Positions 5,867-19,264 of a DNA stretch of 21,851 nucleotides are shown piece after piece. The notes beneath the pieces were generated by a model. The model was given only the letters and a program-made list of their open reading frames with translations. It did not search any database and was not told the origin of the DNA. How positions within the stretch are numbered: the first letter of the stretch is position 1; every line of letters starts with the position of its first letter. The DNA is taken from IMG/VR virus record IMGVR_UViG_3300020438_000317, positions 1-21,851 of that record; one strand, 5' to 3'. The translations under genes and the position numbers were made by a program. The stretch is from a virus.

Positions 5867-6902
5867 CTGAAACTTCATCTCCCATCATCTCTACTGAGCC
5901 GATTGTATATCTTTGTTGTACCCAGTCTGAAAATCTTTTGTCTGATAATATGGGAAGCCAAAACTCTTTACCGAGATCTTTAGCTCTATGTTTAACATCT
6001 GCTACTTCTCCTGTATCAGGATCTATTGCTTGGTACCAACCTACAGTAGGTTTTATTACAAATCCAGATTCTATTCCCATTTCCAATAGACCAGACCATT
6101 TGCTAATACCGTTCTCCCATGTAACTTCTACAGGGATCTTAGACTTCTCTCTTACAAACCTAGACTTCTCGACATTAATTACAAATTCATAACCTGTAAC
6201 TTCTGTTCCTGTCTTTTGTTGTCGTCTACCAATAATAAAAATATTATCTGCTGAGTAATAAATTCCTGTACCACCACTAACAACATCTTTAGGAAACAAT
6301 CCTATCTCTTTATATGTATGGTTAACTACAATAGCTGGAATATCTTTAATAGTTAGGTGAGGAGTTACCATTCTAAATAAAGATTTCATTTGTTTAGCTC
6401 TTGTCATGTCAGCAACACTTTTACCTTCTAAAGCATCTTCTACTTCTTTCTTAGAAGCTAAGTTACCAACAGAGTCAACAACAATCATTAGATGATCGTC
6501 TCTTTCAACACCATTTAACTGTTGCATTATATCATGTTTAAGTTGTTCAATATCTGAGATAGGTGTATGTATTACTTTGCCTGTATCAATATCAAATGTT
6601 TCAAAGTAAGATTGAGGTGCTCCAAACTCTGAGTCATAAAACAATACAACACCATCTTCATATTTCTCTTGGAATGCTTTTATTAATAGCATAGCGAATG
6701 CTGTTTTAAAATGTTTACTAGGACCTGCAAATACTGTTAGTCCAGGTGTTAGTCCACCATCTAATTTTCCACTCAATGCAACATTAACTGCTGGTACCGA
6801 GGTTTGTATTAAATCCTTTTCTCCAAAGAATTTACTTTCTGTTAGGATATTTGTTTCTCGTATTGAGGAATTCTTTTTTATCCTTTCTAATAATTTACTC
6901 AT
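5832..6902 (-). CDS. uvsX: UvsX, RecA-like recombinase
   Basis: A 356-residue RecA-family strand-exchange protein, slightly shorter than T4 UvsX (391). Walker A is the UvsX-type G-P-S-K-H-F-K-T at 60-67 (T4 has G-P-S-K-S-F-K). Walker B is the strand L-M-I-V-V-D-S-V-G-N. The segments V-V-S-G-G-T-G-I-Y-Y-S-A-D and K-S-R-F-V-R-E-K-S match the DNA-binding loop region and the phage-type core. The ATG at 6902 has AGGAG with a 5-base spacer, so the extra N-terminal codons in frame are not used. It overlaps the previous gene by 8 bases. A TTGACT/TATAAT promoter with an 18-base spacer (6984-6955) lies just upstream inside that gene. UvsX loads on ssDNA and starts recombination-dependent replication together with gp41 and gp43. 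Confidence 0.95.
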   Translation of the reverse strand: MSKLLERIKKNSSIRETNILTESKFFGEKDLIQTSVPAVNVALSGKLDGGLTPGLTVFAGPSKHFKTAFAMLLIKAFQEKYEDGVVLFYDSEFGAPQSYFETFDIDTGKVIHTPISDIEQLKHDIMQQLNGVERDDHLMIVVDSVGNLASKKEVEDALEGKSVADMTRAKQMKSLFRMVTPHLTIKDIPAIVVNHTYKEIGLFPKDVVSGGTGIYYSADNIFIIGRRQQKTGTEVTGYEFVINVEKSRFVREKSKIPVEVTWENGISKWSGLLEMGIESGFVIKPTVGWYQAIDPDTGEVADVKHRAKDLGKEFWLPILSDKRFSDWVQQRYTIGSVEMMGDEVSDEDIQQEYEKV

Positions 6903-7650
6903 TATTTCTCCTATCTTTATTCGCCTCAAGGGCTGTATTCATTATGTTATGCGTATTATATGATAAAGCAGAAGCATGAGTCAAGTCCTTAGGGAGACAT
7001 GTTCCACCAAAACCTACCTTTTCATCTGGTCCTGGAACAGCCCAATGGGTTCCTCCTAGGTTTTCATCAGATTCTAAAAACTCTTGTAGTACTTTATAAT
7101 CAATATCCATTGACTTACATATATCATTAAACTCATTTGCTAGACCTACCTTAACTGCTAGTGCAGCGTTTCGCATCATTTTCATCATAGACGCTTCCAT
7201 AGGAGTTACATGTTTTACCATCTTTCCTATAGTGTTGTTAGACATTAGATCTACAAAATTATCATTCCACCAGGCTCCTACAATTAAATCTATATTAGGA
7301 TTCATTACATCTTCTTTCCAATGTCTTTCTCTCAAAAATTCTGGCATCATAATACAACCTCGTCTAGCTAAGTTCAGAGCTTGTTCAGGTCCTACCGTAC
7401 TTCTAATTATAGGATGTACATTAGGATCTAAATCGTCTAGTATATTATCTATAATAGATGCGTCTAATTTATCTTCTTTTAGGTTAGTTGGAACACATAT
7501 AAATGCGTATTCAATACCTTTCCATTCTATATCATTATAACCTTTGGCAGGATCAAGTATTTGAATATCAAATGTTTCTTTGAAACCGTTTATTAAAAAA
7601 TACTCTGTAGCAGTTCCTACAAATCCATATCCAATTATTGCAACTTTCAT
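6895..7650 (-). CDS. Short UDP-glucose/GDP-mannose dehydrogenase family protein
   Basis: A 251-residue nucleotide-sugar 6-dehydrogenase homologue. The NAD-binding Rossmann motif is I-G-Y-G-F-V-G at the N-terminus. The substrate and catalytic blocks S-T-V-G-P-E, M-P-E-F-L-R-E, and N-A-A-L-A-V-K-V with Lys157 upstream, plus the active-site F-G-G-T-C-L-P-K-D with Cys218, are all present. Normal family members are about 390-450 residues and end in a nucleotide-binding domain. Here the chain stops about 30 residues after the catalytic Cys, at the uvsX start, so that domain is absent. It may use another partner or a smaller substrate, or be a reduced phage form. GAGG lies 8 bases before the ATG at 7650. 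It may supply sugar acids for surface or DNA modification; this is inference. Confidence 0.85.
   Translation of the reverse strand: MKVAIIGYGFVGTATEYFLINGFKETFDIQILDPAKGYNDIEWKGIEYAFICVPTNLKEDKLDASIIDNILDDLDPNVHPIIRSTVGPEQALNLARRGCIMMPEFLRERHWKEDVMNPNIDLIVGAWWNDNFVDLMSNNTIGKMVKHVTPMEASMMKMMRNAALAVKVGLANEFNDICKSMDIDYKVLQEFLESDENLGGTHWAVPGPDEKVGFGGTCLPKDLTHASALSYNTHNIMNTALEANKDRRNNE
6955..6984 (-). promoter_or_regulatory. Promoter for uvsX inside the upstream gene
   Basis: Minus strand TTGACT (6984-6979), 18-base spacer, perfect TATAAT (6960-6955), 53 bases before the uvsX ATG. It lies in the last codons of the sugar dehydrogenase gene. It lacks the AGAGTG core of the other four promoters. Confidence 0.6.
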
Positions 7651-7651
7651 T

Positions 7652-7834
7652 TTACTGACCTCTGATTCTAGACTCGAGAATCTCGATTTGTTCTTCCTTC
7701 TTCTTTGTCCAGTTCTTTTCATTCCTTTCCTTACCATTAATAGTTTTAGGTGTGAATTTAGAAACTATAAGTCTTTCCAAGGCTCCTTGCCTTCTAAAGT
7801 TAACTCCTTTTTTGTACCAAGCTCTTGTGCCCAT
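7652..7834 (-). CDS. Small basic phage protein
   Basis: A 60-residue strongly basic protein starting M-G-T-R-A-W-Y-K-K-G-V-N-F-R-R. GGAGGAG stands directly before the ATG, which overlaps the stop of mazG (TAATG). Its own stop is 1 base before the next ATG, so it is tightly packed and translated as part of the mazG-uvsX operon. The pattern W-Y-x-x-G-V-N-F-R-x-x-G-A-x-x-R-L, then a K-T-I-N-G-K motif and a C-terminal charged coiled helix (K-K-E-E-Q-I-E-I-L-E), is one I recall from T4-like marine phages without an assigned function. Confidence 0.75.
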   Translation of the reverse strand: MGTRAWYKKGVNFRRQGALERLIVSKFTPKTINGKERNEKNWTKKKEEQIEILESRIRGQ

Positions 7835-12112: not shown

Positions 12113-13399
12113 TTAGTTAAAATCATCAATTATTTCATCACCTAGTATACCAAAGGAATCTGTAAAACTTGTATTCCTTCTCTTATCATGCTCTCTAACA
12201 AATGACACAAAATCATTTCTATGTCTTTGGAGTTTTTCACCTGTAAAACGATTATTCTTTATCCACTCTACGGTTCGTCTATATTTCTGATATTCGCCTT
12301 CCGTAAACTGTTCATAACCTTTCATGGTTTGTAAACTTTTATCCATAATATTTATAAGTTTATCATTAGCAATTTGTGCTGAAAGGTGTTCAGGACTTGT
12401 CATATGGGGAGAGTCCCAATGTAGTTGACCTGGGTATTGAGTTTTTAGTTCTGCTACTTTAAAAATAAATTCATCTATATTAGGTATTGACAAAAGGTTG
12501 TAAGTAATCATCAAACCTACTTGCAATCCATTACCTAAGACTGTATGTAAATTTTCTTCAAAATGAGACATATCTAATCCGTGTCTAATATATTCTGCTT
12601 GTTTTCCCCACGAGTCTATACTGACATAAAGTTTGGATTCAGGTATATTCTTAGCTAACAATGTGTATCTTTTTACTCTACTCTTAGAAACCATAAGATT
12701 AGAATTACAATGAAACGAAACACCTTCTCTTGGATTTTCTGATACATATTCTAATAACTTATATGTATTCTTATCTAATAAAGGTTCACCACCTGTAACT
12801 CTAAGCACAAATAAATGTTTATATGCTTCTGGAAACCATTTCCAAAATCTTTTTATATACGGAGAATTTGTTTCTTTATATTCACTTCCATTATGATACT
12901 CAGGTTGCGATAGAGGATACTCTCCAAACTCATCCATTTCTTTTTGCCAACTACTACTAAAACTAGGTCCACAATAGCTACACTTCATTTGGCATTTATT
13001 TGTAAAACTAAGTTCCAAATATTTTGGATAAACATCATTCAATCCTGCTTCTGTTGCTTTTGCTATTATATTAGGATCGTGTTTAAAAAATTGTACTGCA
13101 AGTGTCTGTCTATCTGAAATTAAATCTAGATCCTCTACTTGCCAACAATAAGAGCACTCGTCAGGTTGTCCACCTTGCAACATAATTGCTCTCTGTTCCT
13201 TCTTATGAGGTGTGTTATGTAAATCTGAATTTGTAGGAATTTTATGTGTAGGACAATGATAACAAGAATGATTAAGTCCTGAGCCTAAGTGCATTTCTTG
13301 GTGAAACCATTTCAATACACAAAAACCAGGACCTACTTTATCCTGCTCTTCTTTGATCTTGTTTAGATAATAAAGATCGCTATTTAACTTTTTTTCCAA
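12113..13399 (-). CDS. Radical SAM protein (twitch-type) of unknown substrate
   Basis: A 428-residue radical SAM enzyme. The Fe-S cluster motif C-x3-C-x2-C is C-Q-M-K-C-S-Y-C (Cys136, 140, 143), the SAM-binding G-G-E-P is at 203-206, and the S-I-D strand follows in Y-V-S-I-D-S-W. Two further Cys pairs, C-Y-H-C (46-49) and C-S-Y-C (82-85), stand in the N-terminal region together with His residues, as if holding a second metal site. Short 'twitch' radical SAM proteins of this kind occur in marine phages; the substrate is unknown to me. The start is TTG at 13399, overlapping the end of regA by 20 bases with no clear Shine-Dalgarno, so coupling to RegA translation is likely. There is no helper-protein gene beside it in the window. 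Confidence 0.9.
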   Translation of the reverse strand: MEKKLNSDLYYLNKIKEEQDKVGPGFCVLKWFHQEMHLGSGLNHSCYHCPTHKIPTNSDLHNTPHKKEQRAIMLQGGQPDECSYCWQVEDLDLISDRQTLAVQFFKHDPNIIAKATEAGLNDVYPKYLELSFTNKCQMKCSYCGPSFSSSWQKEMDEFGEYPLSQPEYHNGSEYKETNSPYIKRFWKWFPEAYKHLFVLRVTGGEPLLDKNTYKLLEYVSENPREGVSFHCNSNLMVSKSRVKRYTLLAKNIPESKLYVSIDSWGKQAEYIRHGLDMSHFEENLHTVLGNGLQVGLMITYNLLSIPNIDEFIFKVAELKTQYPGQLHWDSPHMTSPEHLSAQIANDKLINIMDKSLQTMKGYEQFTEGEYQKYRRTVEWIKNNRFTGEKLQRHRNDFVSFVREHDKRRNTSFTDSFGILGDEIIDDFN

Positions 13400-15626: not shown

Positions 15627-16220
15627 CTACGAAAAATTCTCCTTGATATCTGTCGTATCTGAGAATTCTAAGTTTATGTGCTTACCTTCACTACTCCAGC
15701 CAAATGCTTTCACATTATCTAAAACAAACTCTGGTTTGGATAGTTCATAAGGATCTCCCTCAATATCATCACCAAATCCTTCTTCAACGAAAGATTGTAC
15801 CACTTGTCTGTCATCAACTATTGCTGCGTATCTCCAAGATCTAACACCGAAACCAATGTTATCTTTTCTCACATCCATACCTAGCTTAATAGTTAATTGT
15901 GCTGAGCCATCAGGAATAATTTTTACATTTACTAGCCCTTGGTTCATTGCCCACTCATTACAGACGAATGTATCGTTAACTGTAATACAATAGACATCAT
16001 CAATACCAGCTTGTCTAAAGTCATTATATAACTCCTCGAACCCTGGTAATTGTTGTCCTGAACATGTAGGTGTAAAAGCTCCTGGTAATCCAAAGACTAC
16101 AATTCTTTTACCTTCAAAAAGATCTACATCATTCATTTCAACAAATTTAGAAACACCATCTGTTGTGGTTACCTGTTTGGTAATTTTAAATGGTGGTATT
16201 TGTGCTGTTAACTCGCTCAT
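15627..16220 (-). CDS. Peroxiredoxin, Prx5-like
   Basis: A 197-residue peroxiredoxin. The active-site motif P-G-A-F-T-P-T-C-S (46-54) has the peroxidatic Cys53, and the supporting Arg is Arg127 in G-V-R-S-W-R-Y-A. The V-N-D-T-F-V block is typical of the Prx5/AhpE-related subfamily. Cys78 and Cys87 could act as resolving partners, though neither position is diagnostic. It reduces peroxides using a thiol donor; a phage copy could protect the infected cell from oxidative stress. The ATG at 16220 overlaps the preceding gene by 3 bases (ATGA) and has GGAGG ahead of it. The gene is inserted between 45 and 44, which are near neighbours in T4. Confidence 0.9.
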   Translation of the reverse strand: MSELTAQIPPFKITKQVTTTDGVSKFVEMNDVDLFEGKRIVVFGLPGAFTPTCSGQQLPGFEELYNDFRQAGIDDVYCITVNDTFVCNEWAMNQGLVNVKIIPDGSAQLTIKLGMDVRKDNIGFGVRSWRYAAIVDDRQVVQSFVEEGFGDDIEGDPYELSKPEFVLDNVKAFGWSSEGKHINLEFSDTTDIKENFS

Positions 16221-17188: not shown

Positions 17189-18148
17189 TTAGTAACAAGA
17201 AAGGTTAAAGTGGTTTGCTATATTCTGTGCAAATAATTGATGTGTTTTAATTGATGGGTGAATTAGATCTCTACCTACATCCTCTCGTTCGTACCCTTTA
17301 GGTGGTTGGCATGTTATTATAGGTGTAAAGATTCTTTCCTTACATATCTGTTGACGCTGTTCAAATGTATCATCTTTATGATATGCTCCTACTGAACCTC
17401 CTACTACTTCCATAGAAAAAATATCTACATCATTTTTGAATTGATGTGCTGAAGATATTTCTGTAGTTTCTTCTAATGAGTTTCCTCCTAGATTCATAAA
17501 TGTTAATTCTATATCTAATTTCTCACATAATTTTATGATAGTACGATAAAGAATTGTATGTTGGGAAGTAGGAATAGTTGTTGATTCATACTCTCTAAAG
17601 AAGGCATAATCAGGTTCATTAGGATACAATAAAGAACCTGCATAGTCTATATTGTGTATTGTGTTATGATCTGTAATTTTAAATGTTCCTGTAGGATTTT
17701 CTGCTACTGCTAACATAATTCTACTAGGTGGTTTGTGCCATCTTTTAGACAGTTCCAAAAGATTATGTGCAGCATATTCTGGCCTGTTGCCAAATAAACT
17801 TGTATCATATACACCAAAGTCTCCTATATCAGATAAAACAGATGCACAAGTATCAAACCTATTAACACCTGGTCCTAATGTAGGACATCCTGCATCTAAT
17901 AACCACCATTCGTTTTGACTAATCTCTTCTAACTCTTTATGATTTCTAAATCCAAAAGAGTCAAAAACATATTCAACATCTATGTGAGGATCGTTCCAAT
18001 ACCAATCTGAACCTTGAATCTTTTTTGCCTTATCAAACCACTCTTGTGATTCGTGCATCATCCATTTATATTTCTTTCCTGGGATAACATCAAAGGCAAT
18101 GAAACCTTTGTCGTTTATTTGAAGTTTTTTAACTGAGTCATTACTCAT
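17189..18148 (-). CDS. SGNH/GDSL hydrolase-like protein with Cys in place of the nucleophile Ser
   Basis: A 319-residue protein with the plan of a phage or bacterial SGNH hydrolase. F-D-S-F-G-F-R-N at about 62-69 is the typical N-S-x-G-F-R lead. The nucleophile block follows as D-A-G-C-P-T-L-G-P-G-V (85-95), which aligns with L-G-D-S-F-T-F-G-Y-G-V, so the nucleophile Ser is Cys88 and the preceding Asp is Gly. A G-G-N block (M-N-L-G-G-N) and the catalytic D-x-x-H (Asp294, His297 in D-L-I-H-P-S) are retained. A thiol nucleophile or loss of esterase activity are both possible. The start at 18148 overlaps the crotonase stop (ATGAGTAA); the longer in-frame reading would overlap it by 74 bases. Substrates of phage SGNH proteins are often cell-surface esters. 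Confidence 0.75.
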   Translation of the reverse strand: MSNDSVKKLQINDKGFIAFDVIPGKKYKWMMHESQEWFDKAKKIQGSDWYWNDPHIDVEYVFDSFGFRNHKELEEISQNEWWLLDAGCPTLGPGVNRFDTCASVLSDIGDFGVYDTSLFGNRPEYAAHNLLELSKRWHKPPSRIMLAVAENPTGTFKITDHNTIHNIDYAGSLLYPNEPDYAFFREYESTTIPTSQHTILYRTIIKLCEKLDIELTFMNLGGNSLEETTEISSAHQFKNDVDIFSMEVVGGSVGAYHKDDTFEQRQQICKERIFTPIITCQPPKGYEREDVGRDLIHPSIKTHQLFAQNIANHFNLSCY

Positions 18149-18923
18149 TTTTGAACACTGCTGGACGGCCTTCTTGCCAGGATGTAAGAGCCTCTTGTAG
18201 ATCTTTAGAGTCAATACATAAATCCTTAGCCCAAAGTGCTTTTGTTATTGCCTCATCTAAATGTCCATTTACAGTTTCCCATGCACCTGCTTTTGTTCCA
18301 TGTACTGCTATTGGTGCACATATTTCTGTTATTCTTTTAGCATATTCAAATGCTACCTGTCTAACATCTTCTCCTGGAGCTATAACTTTATTAACAAGTC
18401 CTACCTTCTCTCCCCATGCAGTAGTCTCAGGATCTCCTGGAATCATAAAGCCCATTGCTCTATTGTAACCAATTTTTTGTGTTAGTTTTACCTGCATTGT
18501 CACAGGATTTAATCCCCTCTGGGATTCGTTCATCCAAAACTTAGTATTGGAATCTGCTATTACAATATCACACCCTAACATAAAACTAAACCCTTCTCCA
18601 ATAGTCCAACCATGAACAGCACAAATAATAGGTTTAGGTGTTGTCATATCATTTTCAAGATATGTACCTAAGCCTTGCTTAGTAGCGTCCATAAAGTTTT
18701 CTGTATTGGATAAGTCTGCACCCACACAAAAGTCTGTTTTGCCTGGGGCTGATTGCATTACTACTGCCCAGACGTCATCATCGTCTCTGACTCTAAGTAA
18801 TGCTTCGTTGATTGCTGGGTATGAATGAATATCACATCGGTTATTGTCGCCAACCATATTTAAACTTATGATTCCAACTCGCCCTATCTTTTCGTAGAGC
18901 ACACGATCCATAATATTTTCCAT
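18141..18923 (-). CDS. Crotonase-fold protein (enoyl-CoA hydratase/isomerase family)
   Basis: A 260-residue crotonase-superfamily protein. The oxyanion-hole blocks are F-C-V-G-A-D-L (65-71) and A-V-H-G-W-T-I-G-E-G (102-111), followed by C-D-I-V-I-A-D. Aligned to rat enoyl-CoA hydratase without gaps from the second block, the catalytic Glu144 position is Ser113, while the Glu164 position is kept as Glu133 (M-N-E). With only one of the two hydratase glutamates it is probably not a classic hydratase; isomerase, hydrolase or decarboxylase chemistry on an acyl-CoA-like substrate remains possible. AGGA lies 7 bases before the ATG at 18923. This family is unusual in phages. The SGNH-like gene follows with overlap, so the two may act in the same acyl or surface-ester pathway. 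Confidence 0.88.
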   Translation of the reverse strand: MENIMDRVLYEKIGRVGIISLNMVGDNNRCDIHSYPAINEALLRVRDDDDVWAVVMQSAPGKTDFCVGADLSNTENFMDATKQGLGTYLENDMTTPKPIICAVHGWTIGEGFSFMLGCDIVIADSNTKFWMNESQRGLNPVTMQVKLTQKIGYNRAMGFMIPGDPETTAWGEKVGLVNKVIAPGEDVRQVAFEYAKRITEICAPIAVHGTKAGAWETVNGHLDEAITKALWAKDLCIDSKDLQEALTSWQEGRPAVFKNE

Positions 18924-18940: not shown

Positions 18941-19264
18941 TTAAAATTCTGCTATTGTAGTTCCTAAATCGTCTTCAATTTTACAGGTTATGTTTGCATC
19001 TATTAGTGCTTGTTTATATGCTGTTCTAACAGTAGATTCATCTGTTATTGTTCCCAGAATATCTAAAGAATCATGTGTATCTTTATCAGGAAAAACATAT
19101 ACAATCCTGGTAACTAGACCGTCTGTCTCGAAACCTTTTGTTGCACCTGCGTTAGCTAAAGCTGTAGCGCTTTCTGTTTTATTAGCTTCTGAAATACTAG
19201 CTACTGTTGGTAATGCTGTGCCCTCATCAGGTCTTGTAAGTGTCATTGTTACGGTATACGCCAT
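18941..19264 (-). CDS. Small late-promoter protein, unknown function
   Basis: A 107-residue protein, threonine- and alanine-rich, starting M-A-Y-T-V-T-M-T-L-T-R. The pattern of short strands (V-T-M-T-L-T; V-T-R-I-V-Y-V-F) with a Ser/Thr/Ala-rich middle looks like a small beta-rich virion or decoration protein. I do not recognise it with certainty. GGAG precedes the ATG at 19264 by 7 bases, and an exact late promoter box is 24 bases upstream, so it is most likely expressed late, which agrees with a structural role. No membrane segment or cysteine-rich motif apart from one Cys near the end. Confidence 0.75.
   Translation of the reverse strand: MAYTVTMTLTRPDEGTALPTVASISEANKTESATALANAGATKGFETDGLVTRIVYVFPDKDTHDSLDILGTITDESTVRTAYKQALIDANITCKIEDDLGTTIAEF

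Follow-up and report, generated by a model that had tools for sequence, protein, structure and literature searches.

A viral protein of predicted SGNH fold with an invariant cysteine in the place of the catalytic serine, encoded downstream of a crotonase gene

Introduction

SGNH enzymes are named for their catalytic serine. Among the described systems closest to the protein reported here, TesA of E. coli possesses the catalytic triad Ser10-Asp154-His157 (PMC5053343, in excerpt), and CgnD uses Ser79 as nucleophile together with the triad partners Asp325 and His328 (PMC10070186, in excerpt). A cysteine in the place of the serine has precedents in the NRPS thioesterase domains of SulM and ObiF, which are involved in beta-lactam or lactone formation, and the SulM variant C2818S was found to cause rapid hydrolysis of the product (PMC11298585, in excerpt). 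In a review on SGNH enzymes, the word “cysteine” occurs twice, both times in connection with disulfides (PMC9487903). Among the papers listed by searches of a literature collection of partial coverage, which leaves absence unproven, there was no report of a natural cysteine nucleophile in SGNH/GDSL proteins.

Here, we describe a gene, named sgnhC in this work, in a 21,851-base stretch of viral DNA (IMGVR_UViG_3300020438_000317, positions 1 to 21,851), which was analyzed as a whole and is termed the window. A sequence-only reading of the window had proposed that the encoded protein is SGNH-like and carries a cysteine at the place of the nucleophilic serine, with the aspartate and histidine of the triad retained. 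This proposal is confirmed by the open reading frame, by the register with TesA and by all 26 distinct homologues that cover the site.

Results

The sgnhC gene and its homologues

The window contains T4-like replication genes coding for UvsX, a DnaB-like helicase, a family B polymerase, a clamp-loader subunit and a sliding clamp, and the best matches listed for the latter in the phage collection are clamps of cyanophages and marine viruses (45%). The features of sgnhC and of the preceding gene are given in Table 1. The lead F62-D-S-F-G-F-R-N69, the block D85-A-G-C88-P-T-L-G-P-G-V95 and the motif D294-L-I-H297 are present in the translation, as had been claimed from the sequence alone.

Table 1. 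Positions in the window of sgnhC, its candidate active-site codons and the overlapping upstream gene
Feature	Coordinates	Strand	Basis
sgnhC, CDS of the Cys-SGNH-fold protein, 319 aa	17189..18148	-	ORF, ATG at 18148; homologues; model
Cys88 codon (TGT), place of the SGNH nucleophile Ser	17885..17887	-	Cys 26/26; register with TesA Ser10
Asp294 codon, block V acid	17267..17269	-	Asp 26/26; register with TesA Asp154 and CgnD Asp325
His297 codon, block V base	17258..17260	-	His 26/26; register with TesA His157 and CgnD His328
Gly120 codon, block II, oxyanion-hole place	17789..17791	-	Gly 26/27, Thr in L011; GDSL alignment
Asn151 codon, block III place	17696..17698	-	Asn 25/27, His in 2; alignment with GDSL block III Asn
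Lead F-D-S-F-G-F-R-N, residues 62-69	17942..17965	-	Gly66 and Arg68 26/26; Asp63 25/26
Crotonase/enoyl-CoA hydratase-like gene, upstream of sgnhC	18141..18923	-	PF00378, E 4.1e-27; 35/39 loci
Overlap of crotonase end and sgnhC start, 8 nt	18141..18148	-	8 nt in 33/35 loci as scored

Four relatives, at 87-89%, came from a scan of viral contigs with the single protein. The scan also returned a tail fragment (L005), which was left out of further analysis, and a search based on the upstream crotonase added three loci with a diverged sgnhC homologue as the next gene. Profile scans and one genome contig (L036) enlarged the homologue set to 39 loci (L001-L004 and L008-L042); a final scan for more sgnhC loci yielded no additional contig. 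As L010 and L032 belong to one and the same contig and a number of the sgnhC proteins are identical, 27 distinct proteins remain, that of the window included; one of them lacks the Cys88 region so that 26 cover the site. The minimum pairwise identity among the homologues is about 25%, and they form nine clusters at 70%.

The sgnhC protein of the window (P0001) had no match by sequence in Pfam, PHROGs, PDB sequences or NCBIfam, the latter containing no GDSL/SGNH model that matched it. Scans of 26 members against Pfam and PHROGs gave scattered weak matches, and no curated GDSL/SGNH family was among the matches listed, many PHROGs families being nameless. A match of four members to phrog_4 (“transcriptional repressor”; best E 6.8e-4) was judged spurious because the model shows an SGNH fold, and the sole match of the family profile among PDB sequences, a ribosomal protein at E 2.2, was attributed to chance. 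In the annotated phage collection, tblastn with P0001 or L009 identified no sgnhC relative, and L010 produced noise alone: its five matches had E values of 4-8, and four fell in major tail proteins. A sister family bearing serine was not found in the profile scans of viral contigs, which returned the sgnhC family alone and in which candidates were kept if tblastn against one sequence supported them, a filter that could lose a distant sister. PF13472 had no match in nine virus records, and was found in 11 of 14 genomes used as a control.

A profile scan of genome contigs returned only L036 (PCBP01000083.1), from a Flavobacteriales MAG, and the profile matched this one genome only among 198 genomes of the same class. 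The contig carries the window's genes at 100% (rounded best-segment identities); its placement in the MAG may be a hint at the host or a binning error.

Predicted structure and active-site register

A first AlphaFold2 model, built from eight sequences, reached a mean pLDDT of 77.7 and already matched SGNH proteins, and a second model of P0001 based on 26 sequences reached a mean pLDDT of 90.2 and a pTM of 0.90. The top match of a Foldseek search against the PDB was TesA (E 4.0e-05). The matches listed were mostly TesA, GDSL/SGNH proteins, acetylxylan and other carbohydrate esterases, PatB, SsfX3 and CgnD, and also included one designed scaffold. In a viral fold library, unnamed proteins of uncultured phages were the closest among the matches listed, with several named SGNH hydrolases ranking lower. 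In the VIA-align ranking, CgnD leads with Z 15.6 (216 residues at 3.7 A), ahead of TesA with Z 12.0 (161 residues at 3.0 A).

The alignment with TesA (5tic_B) extends from model residue 79 to 316 and from chain residue 1 to 176. Provided that no gap lies between these ends and the residues in question, the offsets equate Cys88 with Ser10, Asp294 with Asp154 and His297 with His157. Likewise, the end of the CgnD alignment (314 to 345) equates Asp294 with Asp325 and His297 with His328 if it is gap-free, and its other end leaves the relation of Cys88 to Ser79 unfixed. The comparison with a structure model that had been suggested for the three residues thus has Cys88 (in TesA) and both Asp294 and His297 (in TesA and CgnD) falling on the places of catalytic residues, as judged by register. 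When ten GDSL proteins of bacteria were compared by hhalign, the alignment began at residue 90; counting back places Cys88 at the Ser of GDS, and Gly120 and Asn151 are aligned with blocks II and III, respectively. Looser settings aligned Cys88, Asp294 and His297 directly and in the same register. These GDSL alignments are statistically weak, with probabilities of 6-10% and E values of 0.003-0.006.

The features that mark SGNH membership are found in the fold, in the Gly of block II, in the Asn of block III and in the D-x-x-H of block V; the Ser of G-D-S is absent. As judged from the model and the alignments, the sgnhC protein is SGNH-related by fold and by blocks II, III and V, and is not an SGNH serine hydrolase, the defining serine being missing.

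Conservation and selection

Random residues at site 88, which had been named as a sign against the proposal, are not found, as Cys88, Asp294 and His297 are each present in 26 of the 26 distinct homologues covering the sites. Further conserved sites are Gly120 (26/27), Asn151 (25/27), Glu124 (27/27) as well as His32 and Glu33 (both 25/25). When the three partial rows are excluded, 24 of the 319 columns are invariant in the 24 full-length rows, and Cys88 is the sole cysteine among them; the second most common Cys column, 208, carries cysteine in 18 of these rows. The surroundings of Cys88 are more variable: residue 87 is S, G, E or A, the G-D of G-D-S thus not being kept, and residue 89 is P, F, I, S, L, M or V. 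The triad codons show silent changes, that of Cys88 varying between TGT (22 cases) and TGC (4 cases).

A “G-G-N block” at residues 221-223 had also been described as kept. This did not hold, as the motif is GAN in the four close relatives and is not retained in distant ones; it was therefore rejected as SGNH block III for lack of conservation, and blocks II and III correspond to Gly120 and Asn151. In one locus, L011, the triad is retained alongside four departures at other sites (Gly120 to Thr, Arg122 to Ser, Gly154 to Gln and His197 to Asn), which is a single case.

The sgnhC frames are long and open throughout the homologues. For ten pairs, dN/dS ranged from 0.09 to 0.26, values that exceed those of the clamp and the crotonase (nine pairs each), yet are far below 1. 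The invariance of the cysteine, the silent variation of its codon, its position as the sole invariant Cys and the low dN/dS indicate that Cys88 is a selected site and not a product of decay. The presence of Cys for Ser in every relative found suggests a thiol chemistry that is unusual for the SGNH fold.

Neighboring genes and the crotonase

As far as the loci extend, the genes recur in the order MAYT protein, crotonase, sgnhC, clamp, peroxiredoxin and gp44. In these T4-like marine viruses, the crotonase gene precedes sgnhC in 35 of the 39 loci; three of the others (L017, L023 and L042) begin too near sgnhC to reveal it, and in L011 it is absent from this place, sgnhC starting 16 bases past the MAYT gene. 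In L030 and L031, an upstream ATG was scored as the sgnhC start, and the ATG at codon 10 would restore the 8-nt overlap seen in the other crotonase-bearing loci. From this arrangement, translational coupling of crotonase and sgnhC is likely.

The window crotonase scores 95.6 bits against PF00378, compared with a curated cut-off of 27. Among 21 distinct sequences, the first of two catalytic Glu places, which we take from the positions in rat enoyl-CoA hydratase, is occupied by S, G or N, and the second Glu is kept in all 21. On these presumed places, the upstream gene would belong to the crotonase family and, with one of the two glutamates replaced, would not be an enoyl-CoA hydratase proper. 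Its tblastn matches listed from the phage collection show about 23-32% identity. A viral enoyl-CoA hydratase has been described as one among highly expressed virus genes (PMC11078923, in excerpt).

Several further genes of these viruses were noted. The MAYT protein (107 aa; window 18941-19264, minus strand) lies before the crotonase in all 35 loci that show the latter, and Pfam gave no match for it. The peroxiredoxin (window 15627-16220, minus strand; PF08534, phrog_2281) stays between the clamp and gp44, and its gene is located two genes downstream of sgnhC in 37 of the 39 loci. The window also encodes a twitch-domain radical SAM protein (12113-13399, minus strand; NF033640, 295.6 bits vs. 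a cut-off of 170) and a UDP-glucose/GDP-mannose dehydrogenase-like protein of 280 aa (6895-7737, minus strand), whose NAD-domain match is below the cut-off. In a 170-kb relative, seven of the 107 proteins scanned have Radical_SAM matches. The first 35 kb (1-35 kb) of the L014 contig, from a T4-like virus, contain genes for a GNAT protein, a carbamoyltransferase and two fatty-acid desaturases. The presence of two fatty-acid desaturases and a GNAT protein in the 170-kb relative is compatible with acyl chemistry without proving it.

Exchange of sgnhC alleles

Compared with its neighbors, sgnhC is highly diverged. Median protein identities, taken from pairwise comparisons of 19 representative loci (18 in the case of the crotonase), reached 37% in sgnhC as against 49% in the MAYT protein, 68% in the crotonase, 69% in the peroxiredoxin, 84% in the clamp and 85% in gp44. 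The proteins of L038 and L039 are 99% (clamp), 97% (peroxiredoxin) and 93% (crotonase) identical, whereas their sgnhC proteins share 46%; the L038 sgnhC shares 94% with its L021 counterpart. When the DNA of L038 and L039 is compared in segments of 100 columns, identity ranges over 0.78-0.96 ahead of sgnhC, falls to 0.48-0.72 within the gene, is 0.84 for the segment that covers the end of the gene and rises to 0.94-1.00 beyond. L008 combines a crotonase nearest to the type found in the window of this study with an sgnhC nearest to that of L020. These comparisons show that sgnhC is swapped among related viruses as diverged alleles in which the triad is constant. Less sharp replacements with borders at the gene ends were observed between L015 and L020 and between the window and L011.

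Diversifying selection was considered as the source of this diversity and set aside: since identity drops sharply at the gene borders of L038 and L039 and dN/dS is at most 0.26 in ten pairs, allele exchange fits better. A strictly co-adapted pair of crotonase and sgnhC was likewise rejected because of the reassortment in L008 and the missing crotonase before sgnhC in L011. A fixed active site in varying alleles suggests a target that differs between hosts or between competing phages, and the exchange might reflect an arms race.

Discussion

We favor, with a probability of roughly 0.6, the interpretation that the sgnhC product is a thiol enzyme of the SGNH fold, in which Cys88 would act as the nucleophile, activated by His297 and Asp294, and in which an acyl-S-Cys88 intermediate would serve crotonase-fed acyl transfer or hydrolysis. 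Following the SGNH mechanism, Asp294 would polarize His297, which would deprotonate Cys88. The thiolate would then attack the carbonyl of an acyl thioester or ester, which Gly120, Asn151 and main-chain NH groups would stabilize, to form acyl-S-Cys88. The intermediate would finally be resolved by an acceptor, as in an acyltransferase, or by water. The crotonase might supply or tailor an acyl-CoA-type donor, and it is the presence of this neighbor that makes a CoA-type donor plausible. Compared with hydrolysis, thioester intermediates are relatively more efficient in passing their acyl group to nucleophiles. The sgnhC protein is probably an acyltransferase or a thioesterase supplied by the crotonase, the acyltransferase being our first choice; by analogy to CgnD, a peptide would be the main alternative substrate. 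Several observations weigh against a thiol enzyme acting on acyl groups, namely the loss of the G-D of G-D-S, the weak significance of the GDSL profile alignments, the failure of the scans to reveal a serine-bearing sister family from which a change of Ser to Cys could be reconstructed, the combination in L011 of an intact triad with Thr at position 120 and no crotonase before sgnhC, and the reassortment of crotonase and sgnhC in L008.

The alternative that deserves most attention is a hydrolase, i.e., a thioesterase or peptidase in which the cysteine merely replaces the serine and water resolves acyl-S-Cys88 without any transfer. We regard it as unlikely, though worth serious consideration, as both of the best structural matches, the leader-peptide protease CgnD and the acyl-CoA thioesterase TesA, are themselves hydrolases. 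Peptide-modifying pathways often employ radical SAM or 2OG-Fe(II) oxygenase enzymes, and genes for both are present in sgnhC-bearing viruses, which would agree with a peptidase. However, a cysteine in 26 of 26 homologues and never a serine is hard to explain with water as the acceptor, and the known cysteine precedents SulM and ObiF carry out ring closure (PMC11298585, in excerpt). It is rather improbable that the protein binds ligands or senses redox state on an SGNH scaffold, with Cys88 meeting an oxidant or ligand, perhaps in connection with the peroxiredoxin. The proximity of the peroxiredoxin gene in 37 of 39 loci and the loss of the Gly and Asp of GDS would fit such a role, but neither the invariance of His297 and Asp294 alongside Cys88 nor the retention of blocks II (26/27) and III (25/27) would be expected from it, and the 24 full-length rows contain no second invariant cysteine for a disulfide.

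Two further explanations appear highly improbable. A serine codon can be turned into a cysteine codon by one base change and the median identity of sgnhC is low, so drift in a decayed SGNH hydrolase might be imagined; yet the constancy of Cys88, the silent changes of its codon, the dN/dS values and the long open frames all oppose it. The sequence-only reading had argued for changed chemistry, perhaps that of a transferase, rather than simple decay. Its dismissal of decay is borne out, its argument from the G-G-N block was wrong, and changed chemistry stands as a proposal. Equally slight is the chance of a register error. Some viral SGNH proteins carry G-C-S at block I, and Cys88 might accordingly represent the second place of a motif of this kind, the nucleophile itself being missing. 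The block I motif is GDSxTxGxG, which is partly visible in the GDSL proteins compared here, and the spacing from Cys88 to Gly92 and Gly94 equals that of its Ser. Furthermore, the TesA end offset and the weak hhalign comparison both put Cys88 at the place of the serine, and position 89, the alternative site, is variable.

A wider and distinctly tentative extension of this interpretation holds that the sgnhC proteins are viral thiol acyltransferases, which would pass a CoA-type acyl group from the partner crotonase via Cys88 to a host or phage target, and whose alleles would be swapped in the manner of an arms race around a fixed active site. The near-constant pairing with a crotonase and the allele swapping may indicate that these viruses direct an acyl chemistry not described so far against a variable target. 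If true, a fixed cysteine with His and Asp kept would represent a natural test of how the change from serine to cysteine affects the balance of hydrolysis and transfer in the SGNH fold.

Among viral proteins, BFVD A0A6J5P3N2 and others from uncultured Caudovirales phages are the closest folds listed (E 9.5e-09; TM 0.56/0.66), with A0A6J5L8Q9 and A0A6J5R010 also among the nearest; the identity to the sgnhC protein is 15%. The best structural match overall is the crocagin leader-peptide protease CgnD (PDB 8a2n), which aligns from model residue 4 to 314 and from chain residue 20 to 345. It differs in its nucleophile (Ser79 instead of Cys88), shares 15% identity and belongs to a bacterial RiPP pathway (PMC10070186, in excerpt). 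A CgnD-like peptidase combines a Ser nucleophile with Asp and His, whereas the sgnhC protein carries Cys88 at this place. E. coli TesA, also known as thioesterase I, protease I or lysophospholipase L1, has the SGNH core in common with the sgnhC protein and agrees with its triad in register at both ends of the alignment, but uses Ser10, shares 17% identity and is aligned only from sgnhC residue 79 onward. SulM and ObiF resemble sgnhC in that a cysteine takes the place of serine in a hydrolase triad and serves ring closing (PMC11298585, in excerpt); they belong, however, to the alpha/beta hydrolase superfamily and not to SGNH. The peptidoglycan O-acetyltransferase PatB employs a Ser nucleophile, Ser337 in BcPatB1 (PMC9487903, in excerpt), and both PatB and the salicylyl-acyltransferase SsfX3 (Z 9.7) act on other substrates. 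These two enzymes share the fold of the sgnhC protein and provide a precedent for transfer chemistry.
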